Source of the DNA: Sulfuritalea hydrogenivorans sk43H
Lineage (GTDB): Bacteria; Pseudomonadota; Gammaproteobacteria; Burkholderiales; Rhodocyclaceae
DNA: 64,000 nt
Reading direction: 5' to 3'
Assembly: GCF_000828635.1 (NCBI RefSeq)
Contig: NZ_AP012547.1
Coordinates: 2,790,001-2,854,000, forward strand
The notes under the pieces are model-generated. The model was not told the DNA's origin and did no database searches. It worked only from the letters and a program-made list of their open reading frames with translations. This document shows, in pieces, positions 1-13,699 of the stretch. The translations under genes were made by a program, and so were the position numbers. Numbering within the stretch: position 1 is the first letter of the stretch; every line of letters begins with the position of its first letter.

Positions 1-260
1 GGATCGAGGATATCGTGCGCATGGCCGAAACCCAGGCCTCATGCGAACTCTACGGCCTGCTGAAGCGCCCCGACGAGAAGTACGTCACGGAACGCGCCTA
101 CGACAATCCCAAGTTTGTCGAAGACCTGGTGCGCGACGTTGCCGGCGCCCTGAATGCCGACCCGCGCATCGATGCCTACGTGGTCGAAAGCGAGAACTTC
201 GAGTCCATCCACAACCACTCGGCCTACGCGCTGATCGAGAGCAACAAGAAGCGCTACTGA
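1..260 (+). CDS. folE2: GTP cyclohydrolase FolE2, C-terminal part
   Basis: The gene begins before the window; 85 C-terminal residues are visible in the frame starting at base 3. FolE2 (type IB GTP cyclohydrolase I) converts GTP to 7,8-dihydroneopterin triphosphate, the first step of folate synthesis, in the cytoplasm. Recognition rests on the family's characteristic C-terminus: [20 protein letters not shown], then a conserved [13 protein letters not shown] stretch. It converges on the rplS operon across a strong hairpin. An in-frame GTG at base 15 is only an internal codon. The folate pathway gene folK lies near the other end of the window but is not linked to this one. Confidence 0.85.
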
Positions 261-6550: not shown

Positions 6551-6567
<17 letters not shown>

Positions 6568-8089
6568 GTTTCTCCTGCCCGGAGCACAGCTTGTTCAGCG
6601 CATTGATGTAGGCCTTGGCCGACGCCACCACGATATCCGTATCCGCACCCTGGCCATTCACGATCCGCCCGTCTTTCGACAAGCGCACCGTCACTTCGCC
6701 CTGTGCATCCGTGCCGGTGGTGATGGCATTGACTGAGTACAGCAGCAGTTCGGAACCGCTGGCGGCAACACTTTCGATCGCCTTGAAGGTTGCGTCGACC
6801 GGGCCACTGCCACTCGATGCAGCGTGCTGCTCGGTGCCTCCGGCGGAAAGTGTCAGCTTCGCCTGCGGCGCCTCGCCCGTTTCCGAGTGGAACATCGAGG
6901 ATACCAGCTTGTAATGCTCGTCATCTGGCGGGACCATCTCGTCGCTCATCAACGCATGCAAATCCTCATCAAAAATCTCGTGCTTCTTGTCGGCGAGTTC
7001 CTTGAAATGCGTGAATGCCACATTCAGGACCTGCTCGCTTTCCACTTCTATGCCGAGCTCCTTCAGGCGCGCCTTGAACGCCGTGCGTCCGGAGTGCTTG
7101 CCGAGCACAAGCTTGTTGGCGTTCCAGCCCACATCTTCGGCACGCATGATCTCGTAGGTTTCGCGGTGCTTCAGCACCCCATCCTGATGAATGCCCGATT
7201 CATGAGCGAATGCATTGGCACCGACAATCGCCTTGTTCGGCTGCACCGGGAATCCGGTAATGCTGGACACCATCTTCGATGCGGCGACGATCTGCGTCGT
7301 GTCGATCCGGGTGATGCAGGGAAACACATCCTGCCGCGTATGTACCGCCATGACGATCTCCTCCAGCGCGGCATTGCCGGCTCGCTCGCCAAGACCGTTG
7401 ATGGTGCATTCAACCTGGCGCGCACCAGCCATCACTGCAGCAAGACTGTTGGCCACAGCCAAGCCGAGATCGTTATGGCAATGCACCGACCAGACCACCT
7501 TGTCGGAGTTGGGAATGCGCTCACGCAACTGTCGAATGCGTTCCGCATACTGTTCCGGCACGTTGTAACCCACGGTGTCAGGGATATTGATGGTCGAGGC
7601 GCCCTCCTTGATCACCGCCTCGATGATGCGGCAAAGGAAATCAAGGTCGGAACGACCGGCATCCTCGCATGAGAATTCGACGTCACCGATTCCGTTGCGC
7701 GCGAAACGCACCGCATGCTGCGCGGCGACCAGCACGTCATCCGGCGACATGCGCAACTTCTTTTCCATATGGATCGGACTGGTGGCGATAAAGGTGTGGA
7801 TCCGTCCCGATTTGGCCGGCTTTACCGCCTCCAGCGCCCGCGCGATGTCCTTGTCAAAAGCACGGCACAGACCAGCAACGGTTGAGTCCTTGATGGTTTC
7901 GGCCACCGCCCTGACCGCCTCGAAATCGCCATTGGACGCAGCCGGAAAACCGGCTTCAATCACATCCACCCGCATCCGCTCGAGCTGACGGGCAATCCGC
8001 AGCTTTTCCTCCTTGGTCATGGAGGCGCCCGGGCTCTGCTCGCCGTCGCGCAATGTGGTATCGAAAATAATCAACTGTTCCTTGGACAT
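6551..8089 (-). CDS. leuA: 2-isopropylmalate synthase
   Basis: Protein of 512 aa. LeuA condenses acetyl-CoA with 2-oxoisovalerate, the committed step of leucine synthesis. The N-terminal TIM barrel starts [18 protein letters not shown] and contains [20 protein letters not shown] (metal-binding HxH) and [26 protein letters not shown] lies at about residue 290, and the C-terminal leucine-binding regulatory domain occupies about 370-512, so leucine feedback inhibition is expected. AGGAGATAACC precedes the ATG. A leader of about 200 bases upstream carries a leucine-rich ORF and a terminator-like hairpin. Confidence 0.95.
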
Positions 8090-8109
8090 GGTTATCTCCT
8101 GGGGAAACC

Positions 8110-8143
8110 AAAAAATGGCACGCCGCCCCAGCCGAGGCGGGCA
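8110..8143 (-). terminator. Candidate transcription attenuator before leuA
   Basis: On the minus strand TGCCCGCC and GGCGTGCCA flank a loop, forming an imperfect GC-rich stem followed immediately by TTTTTT, between the leader ORF and leuA. A C-rich stretch upstream (about 8157-8168) could pair with the GGGGCGG of the stem as an antiterminator, but that pairing is weak. A terminator just before the gene it would silence suggests attenuation rather than operon end. Confidence 0.45.
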
Positions 8144-8175
8144 TTATGAACAACCGGATTGTGGGGTGGGTGTAT

Positions 8176-8286
8176 TTAGCGCGCGCGGCGCAGCAGCGGA
8201 AGCAGCTTCGCGCGCAGCGGCAGACGCGCGATCAGCGCGCCTGAGAAGGCAAGGAATAGTGCGGAAAAGATAAGTTTCGCAGCCAT
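8176..8286 (-). CDS. Leucine-rich leader peptide of leuA (putative)
   Basis: A 36-codon ORF starting MAAKLIFSALFLAF and ending in KLLPLLRRAR. Ten of 36 residues are leucine, with four in six codons (LLPLL) near the 3' end, followed after about 30 bases by the terminator-like hairpin. This layout resembles amino-acid leader peptides such as E. coli leuL, although it is longer. There is no Shine-Dalgarno; the start sits about where transcription from the upstream promoter would begin, so translation might be leaderless. It could instead be a small membrane peptide or not expressed. Confidence 0.45.
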   Translation of the reverse strand: MAAKLIFSALFLAFSGALIARLPLRAKLLPLLRRAR

Positions 8287-8293
8287 AAAAATA

Positions 8294-8322
8294 ACTATAA
8301 AGTGTTTATTCCATACGTGCAA
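8294..8322 (-). promoter_or_regulatory. Sigma70 promoter for leuA leader
   Basis: TTGCAC and TATAGT separated by exactly 17 bases on the minus strand, a good sigma70 promoter. The predicted start falls at about 8287, giving a leader of roughly 200 bases before the leuA ATG. Confidence 0.7.
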
Positions 8323-8406
8323 CAGATTTTGTTGTTATAGCTGCACGGCTTGGCGCCCACTTCCACAAGATGCACTTGCACTGTCATCGGCCGAGGCAAG
8401 GCATAC

Positions 8407-9174
8407 TTAGCCACCGTTCGCACCTTGCTTCCGCCGACTGCGCCAATTCGACACAGCCATTACATAGCCCGACAGGGCGTAGGCAAGAAACAAGGCGAAC
8501 AGCACTCCCGGCGGATACGACGACACCAGCACATAGCCAAGAACAATGGCAGGAAGTACCATGAACGGTACACTCCGGCGCAGGTTGATGTCCTTGCCGC
8601 TCCAGTAGGGCAGCGTACTGACCATGGTGACTCCCGCAAACAGAGTCAACGCAAACGCATACCAGCGAACCTCTTCACCGGGGATATTGAGATCGTTGAT
8701 GATCCAGACGAATCCGGCCACCAGTGCAGCCGCAGCCGGGCTCGGCAGTCCCTGAAAATAGCGCTTGTCGACCACGCCGATATTGGTATTGAACCGGGCC
8801 AGGCGCAGTGCGGCGCCTGCGCAGTAAACAAATGCGGCGATCCAGCCCCACTTGCCCATCCCCTTCATGGCCCATTCGAATGCAATCAAGGCAGGAGCCG
8901 CGCCGAAGGAGACCATGTCGGACAGCGAATCGTATTCCGCGCCGAAAGCACTCTGGGTTCGCGTCATGCGTGCCACGCGCCCGTCAAGGCCATCGAATAC
9001 CATGGCGATGAAAATGGCCACTGCCGCATTCTCGAAACGGCCGGTCATGGCCTGAACAATGGCATAAAAGCCAGCGAATAAAGCAGCCGTCGTCAGCAGA
9101 TTGGGCAGCACATAAATGCCGCGCCGACGCAGTTCGGGGTTCATCAACGTCTTGCGGGGCGGGATCACCGGCAT
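8407..9174 (-). CDS. pssA: CDP-diacylglycerol-serine O-phosphatidyltransferase
   Basis: Protein of 255 aa with about seven membrane segments. It makes phosphatidylserine, precursor of phosphatidylethanolamine, from CDP-diacylglycerol and serine. The CDP-alcohol phosphotransferase motif D-G-x-x-A-R-x8-G-x3-D-x3-D is seen as DGRVARMTRTQSAFGAEYDSLSD at about residues 63-85. This is the membrane-integral type II enzyme, unlike the E. coli peripheral enzyme. An alternative start is MNPELRRRGIYVLPN, 10 codons downstream. Position between leuA and the ilv genes is common in related genomes. Confidence 0.93.
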   Translation of the reverse strand: MPVIPPRKTLMNPELRRRGIYVLPNLLTTAALFAGFYAIVQAMTGRFENAAVAIFIAMVFDGLDGRVARMTRTQSAFGAEYDSLSDMVSFGAAPALIAFEWAMKGMGKWGWIAAFVYCAGAALRLARFNTNIGVVDKRYFQGLPSPAAAALVAGFVWIINDLNIPGEEVRWYAFALTLFAGVTMVSTLPYWSGKDINLRRSVPFMVLPAIVLGYVLVSSYPPGVLFALFLAYALSGYVMAVSNWRSRRKQGANGG

Positions 9175-9296
9175 GATTTTGGACGAGTGGGAGACAAACC
9201 TTATTCTACCGGGTCAGCAAACCCAAGCGGCAAGTGTTCCGGCCGCCTTTGCGCCGGCATGCGTCGTGAACTCCTCGCGCAAGAATGAAAGCTGAT

Positions 9297-9326
9297 GGAA
9301 AAAGGGCACAGCGATGCTGTGCCCTT
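9297..9326 (-). terminator. Terminator of the ilvB-ilvN-ilvC operon
   Basis: An 11-bp perfect stem (AAGGGCACAGC and complement, 3-base loop) is followed on the minus strand by TTTTT, about 20 bases past the ilvC stop. Confidence 0.85.
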
Positions 9327-9345
9327 CGTAACTTCCGCACTGAAA

Positions 9346-10377
<1,032 letters not shown>

Positions 10378-10384
10378 TCAGAGT

Positions 10385-10876
10385 TCAGACTTTGAGAATG
10401 CGATCGCCGCGTCCGATGCCGGACACGCCAGTGCGAACGGTTTCGAGGATCAGCGCGCGATCGATGGCTTCGAGGAAGGCATCCAGCTTGGAGCCATTAC
10501 CCGTCAGTTCGATGACGTAGGTCGAATCGGTGACATCGATGATGCGGCCGCGGAATATATCGGCGATGCGCTTCATCTCCTCACGATCCTTGCCGGCGGC
10601 TCGCACCTTGACCAGCATCAGCTCGCGCTCGATGTGCGCGGCCTCGGACAGATCCACTACCTTGACGACATCTATCAGCTTGTTGAGCTGCTTGGTGATC
10701 TGTTCGATGACTTCGTCAGAACCCGTGCTGACAATGGTCATGCGGGAAAGTGAAGCATCTTCCGTCGGTGCTACCGTCAGCGACTCGATGTTGAAAGCGC
10801 GGGCAGAAAACAGTCCCGAAACACGGGAAAGTGCGCCAGCCTCGTTTTCAATAAGAATGGAAATAATGTGTCGCAT
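10385..10876 (-). CDS. ilvN: Acetolactate synthase small (regulatory) subunit
   Basis: Protein of 163 aa, the IlvH/IlvN type. The N-terminal ACT domain (RHIISILIENEAGALSRVSGLFSARAFNIESLTV) binds valine for feedback inhibition, and the C-terminal half binds and activates the IlvB catalytic subunit. Its start lies 2 bases after the ilvB stop, indicating tight coupling in ilvB-ilvN-ilvC. Confidence 0.96.
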   Translation of the reverse strand: MRHIISILIENEAGALSRVSGLFSARAFNIESLTVAPTEDASLSRMTIVSTGSDEVIEQITKQLNKLIDVVKVVDLSEAAHIERELMLVKVRAAGKDREEMKRIADIFRGRIIDVTDSTYVIELTGNGSKLDAFLEAIDRALILETVRTGVSGIGRGDRILKV

Positions 10877-10878
10877 GC

Positions 10879-12588
10879 TTACAGCTCCTCGGCCAGGATC
10901 ATTTCCGACAATCCCTTGCCGGCGGCCACCATCGGGTAGACATTCGCCGTCTGGTCAGTGAGGAAGTCCATGAAAACAAGATCATTCTTGTGCTTGGTGA
11001 ATGCCTCGCGCAAAGCCGGTTCCACATCGGCGGGACGCTCGATTTTCATACCGACATGCCCGTACGACTCTGCCAGCTTCACGAAATCGGGCAGGGCATC
11101 GACATAGGATTCCGAATAGCGGTTGCCATGAAACATCTGCTGCCACTGCCGCACCATGCCGAGATAGCGATTGTTGAGGTTGATGATCTTGATCGGCAGG
11201 CGGAACTGCTTGGCTGTCGACAACTCCTGAATGTTCATCTGGATCGAGGCCTCTCCGGTGACGCATGCCACCGTCGCCTTCGGGTTGGCGAAACGCACAC
11301 CCATCGCATAGGGCAAACCAACGCCCATTGTGCCCAAACCGCCAGAGTTGATCCAGCGCCGTGGCTTGTCGAACTTGTAGTACTGCGCCGCCCACATCTG
11401 GTGCTGCCCAACGTCGGAGGTGATGAAGGCCTCGCCGCCCGTAACCTCGTAGAGTTTTTCCACGACGTACTGGGGCATGATGACTTCCTTGCCCTGCTTG
11501 TACTTGAGCGACTTCTTGCCGCGCCATTCGTCGATCTGCTTCCACCAGACCGCCAATGCCTTCGAATCAGGCACGCCGGCAGAAGCTTCGAGAAGTTTCT
11601 GCAGTTCATCCAGGACATCCGGAAGATTGCCGACGATGGGGACATCGACCTTGACGCGCTTGGAAATCGAGGAAGGGTCTATGTCAATGTGGATGATCTT
11701 GCGCGGGATCTCGGCGAAATGCACCGGATTGCCAATCACCCGATCGTCGAACCGCGCACCGACGGCAATCAGCACATCGCAGTTCTGCATGGCCATGTTG
11801 GCCTCGTAGGTGCCGTGCATGCCCAGCATGCCGAGTGACTGCTTGTCGGTTGCGGGATAACCGCCCAAACCCATCAGGGTGTTGGTTACCGGATACCCGA
11901 GTGTGCGGGCAAGCTTAGCGAGCTTTTCCGCGGCATCTGAGAGAATCACCCCGCCGCCCGCATAGATCATCGGCCGCTTGGCCTCCAGCAGCATCTGCAC
12001 CGCCTTCTTGATCTGCCCGCTGTGACCCTTGACCACCGGGTTGTAGGAACGCATGGCAATCGTCTTGGGATAGTCGAACTCGCACTTCTGGTTGGTGATG
12101 TCCTTCGGAATATCGACCAGCACGGGACCGGGGCGGCCGGTCTTGGCAATGTAGAAGGCCTTTTTCAAGGTGATCGCCAGATCCCTGACATCCTTGACCA
12201 AAAAATTGTGCTTGACGCAAGGTCGGGTAATCCCCACCGTGTCGCACTCTTGGAAAGCATCCTGGCCGATATAGGCTGTCGGTACCTGGCCGCTGATGAT
12301 GACCATTGGCACCGAGTCCATATGCGCTGTCGCAATTCCCGTTACCGCGTTGGTGACGCCCGGACCCGAGGTGACCATGCAGACCCCGATCTTGTTGGAA
12401 GATCGCGAATAAGCATCCGCAGCATGGACGGCCGCCTGCTCATGGCGAACCAGAACATGCTTGAATTTGTCCTGCTTGAAGAGTTCGTCGTAAATAAAGA
12501 GTACTGAGCCGCCGGGATAGCCGAATACGTACTCGACCTTTTCCTCCTGCAAGCACCTGATTACAATTTCTGCGCCGGTTAGCTGCAT
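10879..12588 (-). CDS. ilvB: Acetolactate synthase large (catalytic) subunit
   Basis: Protein of 569 aa. This ThDP- and FAD-dependent enzyme condenses two pyruvates, or pyruvate with 2-oxobutyrate, at the first common step of branched-chain amino acid synthesis. Visible motifs are FGYPGGSVLFIYDEL, the catalytic-glutamate region LVRHEQAAVHAADAYSRSS (about 44-62), TSGPGVTNAVTGIATA, and the ThDP/Mg site VTGEASIQMNIQELSTA. At the last of these the usual G-D-G-S reads G-E-A-S. It heads the ilvBNC operon. No leader peptide resembling that of leuA was seen upstream. Confidence 0.96.
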   Translation of the reverse strand: MQLTGAEIVIRCLQEEKVEYVFGYPGGSVLFIYDELFKQDKFKHVLVRHEQAAVHAADAYSRSSNKIGVCMVTSGPGVTNAVTGIATAHMDSVPMVIISGQVPTAYIGQDAFQECDTVGITRPCVKHNFLVKDVRDLAITLKKAFYIAKTGRPGPVLVDIPKDITNQKCEFDYPKTIAMRSYNPVVKGHSGQIKKAVQMLLEAKRPMIYAGGGVILSDAAEKLAKLARTLGYPVTNTLMGLGGYPATDKQSLGMLGMHGTYEANMAMQNCDVLIAVGARFDDRVIGNPVHFAEIPRKIIHIDIDPSSISKRVKVDVPIVGNLPDVLDELQKLLEASAGVPDSKALAVWWKQIDEWRGKKSLKYKQGKEVIMPQYVVEKLYEVTGGEAFITSDVGQHQMWAAQYYKFDKPRRWINSGGLGTMGVGLPYAMGVRFANPKATVACVTGEASIQMNIQELSTAKQFRLPIKIINLNNRYLGMVRQWQQMFHGNRYSESYVDALPDFVKLAESYGHVGMKIERPADVEPALREAFTKHKNDLVFMDFLTDQTANVYPMVAAGKGLSEMILAEEL

Positions 12589-12693
12589 TGGTTACACCTG
12601 TTACACTTTTCGAGTGAAACGTATAACCTTACTGACTCGCCCGCAAATGGTCAAGATTTATGTCTGTGGTGCTCGCACCGCAGACGGTATCCC

Positions 12694-12722
12694 TTGCAGA
12701 TATAGCCAGTCCCGCGTAATGA
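12694..12722 (+). promoter_or_regulatory. Promoter of the sigma factor operon
   Basis: TTGCAG and TAATGA are separated by 17 bases. The predicted transcript start is about 12729, just upstream of the AGGAG that precedes the proposed CTG start at 12753. Confidence 0.5.
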
Positions 12723-12752
12723 AAAACTGCTGAATCCCGGCAGGAGTCCCCT

Positions 12753-13316
12753 CTGAGTTCCCGAACCGAACTTTCAACTTTCCTTGCCAGCGTAGAGCGA
12801 CGAGCCTTCAAACAGGCGATGTTCGCCATTCGGAACGAGGAGACCGCGCTGGACATTGTCCAGGATGCGATGATGAAACTCGCGGAGAAATACGGTGACC
12901 GGCCGGTGACGGAATGGCCGATGCTGTTTCAGCGAATCCTGCAAAATGCCATCCGCGACAATTACCGGCGATCAAAGGTCCGCTCCCTGTGGACAACCCT
13001 GCTGTCTTCCCTTTCCCCAAGCGATGACGAGGATGCCGATCCGCTTGAAACTTTTGCAGCTGAAAACGAGTCAGATGGACTGACCACACCACACCGGCAA
13101 CTGGAACGATCGCAACTCCTTGGTGCAATTGAAAAAGAAATCGAAAAGCTGCCTCCACGTCAACGTGAAGCCTTCCTGATGCGTTATTGGGAAGAAATGG
13201 ATATTGCCGAAACTGCGGAGGCAATGGGGTGTTCGGAGGGCAGCGTAAAGACGCATTGTTCGCGCGCCACCCATACTCTGGCCGAAGCACTCAAGGCGAA
13301 GGGCATCGAGTTATGA
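12753..13316 (+). CDS. RNA polymerase sigma factor, ECF-like
   Basis: Protein of 187 aa with sigma region 2 (SVERRAFKQAMFAIRNEETALDIVQDAMMKL, then the DNA-melting WPMLFQRILQNAIRDNYRR) and region 4 (LPPRQREAFLMRYWEEMDIAETAEAMGCSEGSVKTH). The first in-frame ATG is at 12819, but that start would remove part of region 2.1. A CTG at 12753, with AGGAG 6 bases upstream, restores LSSRTELSTFLASVERRAFKQ, which matches the family N-terminus. No in-frame ATG, GTG or TTG lies between. It overlaps the DUF3619 start by 4 bases and heads a four-gene cluster. Confidence 0.85.
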   Translation: MSSRTELSTFLASVERRAFKQAMFAIRNEETALDIVQDAMMKLAEKYGDRPVTEWPMLFQRILQNAIRDNYRRSKVRSLWTTLLSSLSPSDDEDADPLETFAAENESDGLTTPHRQLERSQLLGAIEKEIEKLPPRQREAFLMRYWEEMDIAETAEAMGCSEGSVKTHCSRATHTLAEALKAKGIEL

Positions 13317-13699
13317 ACGAAGATACTGAATTCGGTTACAAAACAAGGCAAATTCTCAATCAGGGCTTGGACACGCTTGACAAGAAGGTGACTGGTCGCC
13401 TCCATGAAGCCCGTCAGACAGCGTTGAGTAGTCAGCGGGTTGCAGTAAGGGGCTTGCGCTTGGCCGGAATCGGGCACAACATTGAAATGCTAGTATTTCC
13501 AAGCGCGCGTAGCTTGCTTGCCGTGATGGCTCTGAGTGTCGGCATCATGGGTACGTATTACTGGAATGCCTTTCAGCAATCTCAGGAATTCGAGGAAATC
13601 GACAGCGCCCTGCTTGCCGACGAACTGCCCCCGTCCGCCTACCTTGATCGAGGCTTCCACGTATGGCTCGAGCGCGCTTCGGACTCATCCTCGCAGTAG
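13313..13699 (+). CDS. DUF3619 protein, possible anti-sigma factor
   Basis: Protein of 128 aa. Residues 1-60 are charged and helical (YKTRQILNQGLDTLDKKVTGRLHEAR); one membrane segment lies at about 66-88 (SLLAVMALSVGIMGTYYW); an acidic segment, EFEEIDSALLADELPPSAYLDRGF, follows. It matches the betaproteobacterial DUF3619 family. The start overlaps the sigma factor stop (ATGA), and a soluble N-terminus with one membrane helix is the usual shape of an anti-sigma factor, so that role is a reasonable inference. Its end overlaps the DUF3106 gene by 37 bases. Confidence 0.75.
   Translation: MNEDTEFGYKTRQILNQGLDTLDKKVTGRLHEARQTALSSQRVAVRGLRLAGIGHNIEMLVFPSARSLLAVMALSVGIMGTYYWNAFQQSQEFEEIDSALLADELPPSAYLDRGFHVWLERASDSSSQ

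Follow-up and report, generated by a model that had tools for sequence, protein, structure and literature searches.

A very probably leaderless, leucine-rich leader ORF upstream of isopropylmalate synthase genes in Burkholderiales as a probable leucine sensor, with Rho as a possible read-out

The tnaC leader of Escherichia coli is a Rho-dependent attenuator based on an upstream ORF (uORF), and it senses free tryptophan. In mycobacteria, leaderless polycysteine uORFs reportedly act as attenuators (Canestrari 2020), with a codon run for the sensed amino acid near the stop codon, and Vitreschak and others are said to have made a comparative study of attenuators in Proteobacteria. According to excerpts from an earlier comparative study, the mycobacterial polycysteine uORFs have no clear intrinsic terminator (PMC1262725). 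In the betaproteobacterium Bordetella pertussis, a lead ribosome stalled on the cruR uORF keeps Rho off a C-rich site, and a pause of RNA polymerase has been proposed in the intergenic region, as stated in extracts of that report (PMC9426467). Attenuation of leu genes by leader peptides, mycobacterial leaderless uORF attenuators and, from the excerpted study, an actinobacterial leucine leader without a terminator (PMC1262725) are already known. Here we describe a leader upstream of leuA in Sulfuritalea hydrogenivorans sk43H that shares features with several of these systems.

The window analysed is a stretch of 64,000 nucleotides (contig NZ_AP012547.1, positions 2,790,001 to 2,854,000), and the parts of the leader are listed in Table 1. 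The original prediction, made from these letters alone, had proposed ribosome-mediated attenuation with a promoter TTGCAC-17-TATAGT at 8322-8294, a 36-codon ORF containing 10 leucines with LLPLL in its last third, and a GC hairpin followed by T6 just ahead of leuA. The promoter, which is near-invariant in the genus alignment described below, the ORF and the hairpin with its T6 run are all where they had been placed. The encoded peptide of 36 residues is MAAKLIFSALFLAFSGALIARLPLRAKLLPLLRRAR. Taken over its whole length, the leader shows no clear folding advantage over shuffled sequences (z -1.39; 20 of 200 shuffles were as good), and a generic promoter/terminator scanner reported no site in it at the scanner's own thresholds; the relevant parts must therefore come from comparison with related sequences. 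A search of Rfam 15 with window positions 7000-13500 at E values up to 5 returned only a chance miRNA match (18.7 bits versus a gathering score of 57), none of ten related loci gave an Rfam match at gathering score, and a search of plasmid DNA found nothing.

Table 1. Features of the leuA leader region (window coordinates).
Feature	Position	Strand	Basis or remark
-35 box TTGCAC	8317..8322	-	sequence; TTG near-invariant across genus alignment
-10 box TATAGT	8294..8299	-	sequence; 17-nt spacer to -35; 7 nt between box end and leader ATG
Leader ORF, 36 codons plus stop, 10 Leu	8176..8286 (ATG 8286, TAA 8176)	-	very probably leaderless
Core matched by covariance model R1	8157..8201	-	last Leu codons, P1, stop codon, C-rich run
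P1, small hairpin UGCGC-CGC-GCGCG	8180..8192	-	overlaps ORF end
C-rich, G-poor stretch directly 3' of stop codon	8154..8175	-	11 C and 2 G among 22 nt; putative site of Rho loading
P2, conserved GC hairpin (terminator of the original prediction)	8120..8144	-	more stable than shuffles; compensatory changes
T6 run	8110..8115	-	sequence; 4 nt past extended P2 stem, 7 nt past GC core
leuA, 2-isopropylmalate synthase, 512 aa, own SD (AGGAG)	6551..8089	-	NF002087, 912.7 bits versus cut-off 729; TIGR00973
pssA, gene upstream of leader	8407-9174		TIGR00473

A DNA search with the leader gave a match in 29 of 30 congeners, the exception being a genome that is 83% complete (G019). The region is present in all 30 aligned genus loci (the window and 29 congeners), and the leader ORF is intact in 29 of them; in the other, L028, it is disrupted by a deletion. 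Besides the promoter, the final ∼22 bases of the ORF barely vary, and leucine occupies codons 12, 24, 28, 31 and 32 in all 27 genus ORFs of 36 codons. A dispersed repeat of ∼65 bp was observed beside the leader: it lies between P2 and the leuA SD in L008, L010, L011, L013-L015, L018, L020, L021 and others, and in inverted orientation upstream of the leader promoter in L004, L005 and L009. A copy from L005 has 18 matches in the genome of the window; in three congeners the numbers are 10, 15 and 20. This repeat adds ∼60 nt to the leader in roughly half of the genus, leaving the leader undisturbed.

For the order as a whole, leuA was detected (E up to 1e-80) in 208 of 250 genomes. From 145 loci with a leuA start, L031 (a duplicate of L001) and L119 (too short) were taken out, leaving 143, that is, 30 of the genus and 113 others. 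A short ORF with at least four leucines in seven residues near its end is present in 72 of the 113 upstream regions outside the genus, as compared with 6.8% of Markov-resampled sequences. Typical leader peptides outside the genus are MSNAHQYRFVSFPANVLLAALLLRLAR and MFKFVSFLPSELSPRSLLLAGLLLRVRAR; an ending of the form LL..LLLRxAR* is common to many across the order, while the N-terminus is free and unrelated between families. The leucine codons are mostly the common CTG and not rare codons. The original prediction had named a lack of conservation among relatives as evidence against itself; conservation was found, since the ORF is kept in the genus and leucine-rich ORFs precede leuA across the order. 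Leaders were selected by the leucine-run or the tail rule (104), and removal of L100, L105 and L145 by eye left 101 (30 genus, 71 others); L028 stayed among the genus 30 with a wrong ORF in the terminator, hairpin-stability, pairing-map, promoter/SD and post-stop counts. The leuA leader of L105, MKFELLALLLTPHGRDL, which is left out of the counts, looks different from these; a strong hairpin, AAAGGCCC...GGGCCTTTT, comes after it, and it resembles a classical attenuator more closely.

The position of the promoter relative to the ORF is similar in most leaders. In 92 of 101 (29 of 30 in the genus and 63 of 71 others) the leader ATG follows the end of the best -10 match at a distance of 5-9 nt, versus 11.5% and 12.8% of shuffles, and the pattern TTGNNN-16..19-TANNNT-5..9-ATG fits 90 of the 101. 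In L006, L036, L042, L115 and L124 an upstream in-frame ATG had been taken, and these were scored as exceptions in the promoter-to-ATG count. An SD 4-mer precedes just one of the 101 leader ORFs, as compared with 99 of the 101 leuA genes. The 7 nt that separate the -10 box from the ATG in the window, a correction of a first reading, leave no space for a ribosome-binding site. Given this distance, the transcript should start at or beside the ATG, at about 8287-8284. These sequence comparisons indicate that the leader ORF is very probably leaderless.

The 3' end of the ORF was analysed with alignment A1, made of 58 of the 70 distinct core sequences, and with R1, a covariance model of this region comprising 45 positions. 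A small hairpin, UGCGC-N3-GCGCG (P1), is conserved there. The penultimate alanine codon is GCG in all 72 leaders ending in AR versus 765 of 1908 alanine codons of leuA (up to 250 codons each, loci L001-L060), a comparison in which the relatedness of the species limits independence. In L099, L115, L138 and L144, four odd leaders that stop earlier or end differently, the predicted folds retain a hairpin at this place. The 5' side of P1 is invariant in the 58-sequence alignment, and hence no two-sided covariation was seen there. Relative to shuffles, the mean z of P1 is -1.10 in the other families (n = 71) and -0.03 in the GC-rich genus (n = 30), where it is no better than shuffles. Support for P1 comes from the codon choice and from the folds of the four odd leaders. 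A longer pairing of GCGCGCG with CGCGCGC across the ORF, put forward in the original prediction as a pause structure, was rejected; it is not conserved in the genus alignment, and in some congeners it is disrupted, with TTGCGGGCG in L023 and L029. Averaged pairing probabilities also suggest a hairpin within the ORF, 5' of the last leucine codons, that covers the first ones, at -48 to -26 from the stop codon outside the genus and at -68 to -46 within it; the region outside the genus has a z of -1.08 (71 leaders).

The peptide itself might be the product, as a small membrane protein or an arrest peptide in which the leucine content is incidental. In the genus, the N-terminal half of the peptide is hydrophobic and its C-terminus is basic and conserved, and at codons 23-36 differences from the consensus are more often synonymous (31) than non-synonymous (16). 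At codons 2-22, however, non-synonymous differences exceed synonymous ones (154 versus 96), and the N-termini have nothing in common between families. Moreover, the fixed GCG codon shows that the 3' end is conserved as nucleotides, some leaders without the RxAR end retain a hairpin, and the peptides tried had no match in Pfam or NCBIfam. An arrest function of RxAR was set aside because the four odd leaders end otherwise. We consider it very improbable that the peptide is the product.

Directly 3' of the stop codon, 86 of 101 leaders pass a fixed cut for C-rich, G-poor composition over 18 nt, versus 12 of 566 long ORFs (mechanical ORFs of at least 250 aa from related contigs). Compared with shuffles, this stretch has less structure (mean z +0.86 and +0.23), and RNA of such composition at this position would become free upon release of the ribosome. 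In leaders outside the genus a recurring motif, CCCACAATTCGnGTnGTA, lies ∼18-40 nt past the leader stop between the C-run and P2, and sometimes a weak ACAA/TTGT hairpin is possible there. P2 is more stable than shuffles, with a mean z of -1.65 in the genus (30) and -1.97 in the others (71), and two-sided changes are kept at four of its seven pairs in the 25 of 30 genus sequences used for this analysis, where 11 of 175 cells are unpaired.

P2 could be the intrinsic terminator of a classical leucine attenuator, in which stalling of the ribosome would set part of the leader free to form an antiterminator with the 5' strand of P2. The order of the elements, leucine codons and then a conserved hairpin ahead of leuA, and the T6 near the hairpin in the window fit such a design, and one congener (L008) has a strong terminator score and another (L027) a score just above zero. 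These two are, however, the only passing leaders of the genus (2 of 30), and none of the 71 others pass, which is no more than among resampled sequences (2.0% and 0.8%); the score D, which combines hairpin stability with the U-tail, is uncalibrated on the known terminators of this genome. P2 of the window scores -43.5 to -60.8, far under terminator level, and the T6 run is not a conserved U-tract in relatives. The hairpin of the original prediction is real and conserved with compensatory changes, but a usable U-tract is lacking in the window and in nearly all relatives, and what had been called an imperfect terminator stem is, as judged by sequence comparison, not a terminator of the usual kind. 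Nor did an antiterminator emerge. Eight RNAduplex pairings of leader segments with downstream RNA (leucine codons, P1, the P1 3' strand, the C-rich stretch twice, the stop region, a ACAATTCG-like motif and the 5' part of the ORF) gave mean z values of -0.15 to +0.80 over 76 leaders, that is, no enrichment, including for the leucine codons and P1, in a test that a lineage-specific pairing could escape. The comparison of leuA leaders across relatives, which the original prediction had proposed, thus revealed recurring leucine codons but not enriched, mutually exclusive pairings; its attenuation model is supported as far as a leucine-codon leader peptide controlling leuA is concerned, and the classical terminator/antiterminator design is not supported by the terminator scores or the eight pairings. 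We regard a classical attenuator as quite unlikely.

Since neither terminator nor antiterminator was found, the position of the ribosome might act by other means that involve neither Rho nor a terminator: through access to the leuA ribosome-binding site, through reinitiation, or through exposure of the G-poor stretch to RNase. A precedent is the actinobacterial LEU element, for which excerpts of the comparative study propose pairing of the leucine codons with the leuA SD (PMC1262725). Against this, the RNA around the leuA start lacks structure (mean z -0.12 and -0.06), and pairing of the leucine codons with the leuA SD has a mean z of -0.18, with 7 of 76 leaders below -2, at most a weak excess in some. 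In addition, an insertion of 60 nt before the SD is tolerated in about half of the genus. Such a mode of action appears unlikely to us.

Next to the structure of the leader, its genomic distribution is informative about function. R1 matches the window with 53 bits (E 3.0e-7), the window being one of the 58 sequences in the model. A search of the 250 genomes of the order, which include the genomes used for building R1, gave 101 matches in 100 genomes and none in 150. Of these matches, 82 lie 63-126 nt upstream of a type-1 leuA, the type of the window, and 17 lie upstream of a second, long type of isopropylmalate synthase that is 27-32% identical to the window's LeuA and whose N-terminal pieces have PRK03739, PRK14847 and TIGR00970 as best matches. 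The two matches located elsewhere (G239:C60 and G226:C26) were taken as chance. In a class-level sample of 274 genomes, R1 was found, beyond the window's own genome, in two genomes of one genus outside the order, both times before a type-2 leuA. Scanning genome contigs for an exact 23-base pattern gave at least 120 loci; among the matches listed, all 117 that could be judged lie upstream of an isopropylmalate synthase gene (116 of type 1 and one of type 2), and three are too near the end of the locus. Two exact-pattern loci are from Sulfuricaulis and Lysobacter MAGs, which are possibly mis-binned. Parachitinimonas caeni has separate leaders ahead of each synthase type (L233 and L199). In three loci of the window's family (L032, L035 and L044; genomes G147, G223 and G254), a frame similar to the end of pssA has its stop 16-18 nt ahead of leuA, and neither a leader nor an R1 match is present. 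It looks as though leuA became part of the upstream operon, with loss of the leader.

That one and the same leader occurs with both enzyme types suggests a module tied to the reaction and not to the gene, and such tracking of a reaction across two non-orthologous types of gene is to be expected of a leucine sensor. On the strength of these comparisons we consider it highly probable that a leucine-responsive leader peptide controls leuA.

How the peptide would exert this control is less certain, and we favor ribosome-mediated leucine attenuation read out by Rho. This reading builds on observed features, namely the conserved leader ORF and the placement of its promoter, P1 and P2, the C-rich stretch, and an almost exclusive association with genes for isopropylmalate synthase; the leucine response, ribosome stalling, pausing at P2 and use of Rho are the parts that we infer. 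Transcription would start from or next to the leader ATG, and ribosomes would bind to the exposed 5' end of the RNA as it is made. Depending on how much charged leucine tRNA is available, the lead ribosome would then either stall at the leucine codons before P1 or run to the stop codon and be released. When leucine is plentiful, release would leave the C-rich stretch open, Rho would load and reach an RNA polymerase delayed near P2, which could act as a pause site, and leuA would not be transcribed. When leucine is short, the stalled lead ribosome would block the action of Rho and transcription would continue into leuA. Leucine would in this way be made only when it is short, apparently without the usual terminator hairpin.

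Several observations speak against this reading. Judging from the sizes of ribosome footprints, a ribosome stalled at the leucine codons should extend only to approximately the stop codon, so that shielding from Rho farther downstream is unaccounted for. For a Rho site the C-rich stretch is short, and its role could be no more than to hold P1 and P2 apart. The prevalence of common CTG codons, and the lack of an R1 match in the three same-family relatives and in the 150 genomes of the order, count against it as well. Given a leucine-responsive leader peptide, we put the chances that Rho is the read-out at about even, and the full reading just short of that.

It is possible, with a likelihood somewhat below even, that these leaders form an undescribed, order-wide class: a leaderless polyleucine uORF that ends in a conserved RNA hairpin and whose stop codon is followed by a Rho loading site, devoid of a terminator/antiterminator switch, shared by two non-orthologous synthases and occurring in at least one genus outside the order. 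No description of the leader in Betaproteobacteria was found in the literature searched, including extracts of PMC13236596, PMC2965389, PMC12121999 and PMC8632094; most subscription literature lay outside this search, and an earlier report may exist. With this leader, control of leucine synthesis by a leader peptide would extend to betaproteobacteria such as Gallionella, Nitrotoga, Nitrosomonas, Ferrovum, Methylophilaceae and Sulfuritalea. R1 finds it with few false matches, which argues for an Rfam family and for annotation of the leader ORFs. The leader also opens two questions to experiment: can attenuation in Proteobacteria be driven by ribosomes that load on leaderless RNA, and can amino-acid starvation be read out by Rho in place of a terminator hairpin?

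With the enterobacterial leuL attenuator, the leader described here shares a short leucine-rich ORF before leuA and a hairpin in between, as described in excerpts of PMC6123439. Unlike leuL, the ORF is very probably leaderless, its leucine codons are mostly the common CTG, the hairpin has no terminator U-tract, no antiterminator was found and Rfam gave no match. The LeuL peptides of Campylobacter and other Epsilonproteobacteria are likewise leaders of 20-35 aa with several C-terminal leucines, located before leuABCD; according to extracts of that report, however, those ORFs were found via their ribosome-binding site, and in C. jejuni their leucine codons are of rare types (PMC3847290). The actinobacterial LEU element also combines a leucine-run leader peptide before leuA with the lack of a classical attenuator, but in the excerpted account it is a pseudoknot in which leucine codons pair with the leuA SD (PMC1262725), a pairing that is not general here. 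The mycobacterial polycysteine uORFs are leaderless as well; the leader described here differs from them in encoding leucine instead of cysteine, in belonging to a different phylum and in its fixed hairpin at the ORF end. If Rho acts, the leader resembles uORFs of the cruR/tnaC type, in which the position of the ribosome near the uORF end decides whether Rho loads at an unstructured C-rich site. CruR is, as extracts of the report have it, a larger copper-sensing protein with an arrest motif (PMC9426467), whereas the leader described here would sense charged leucine tRNA, with Rho as the putative reader.
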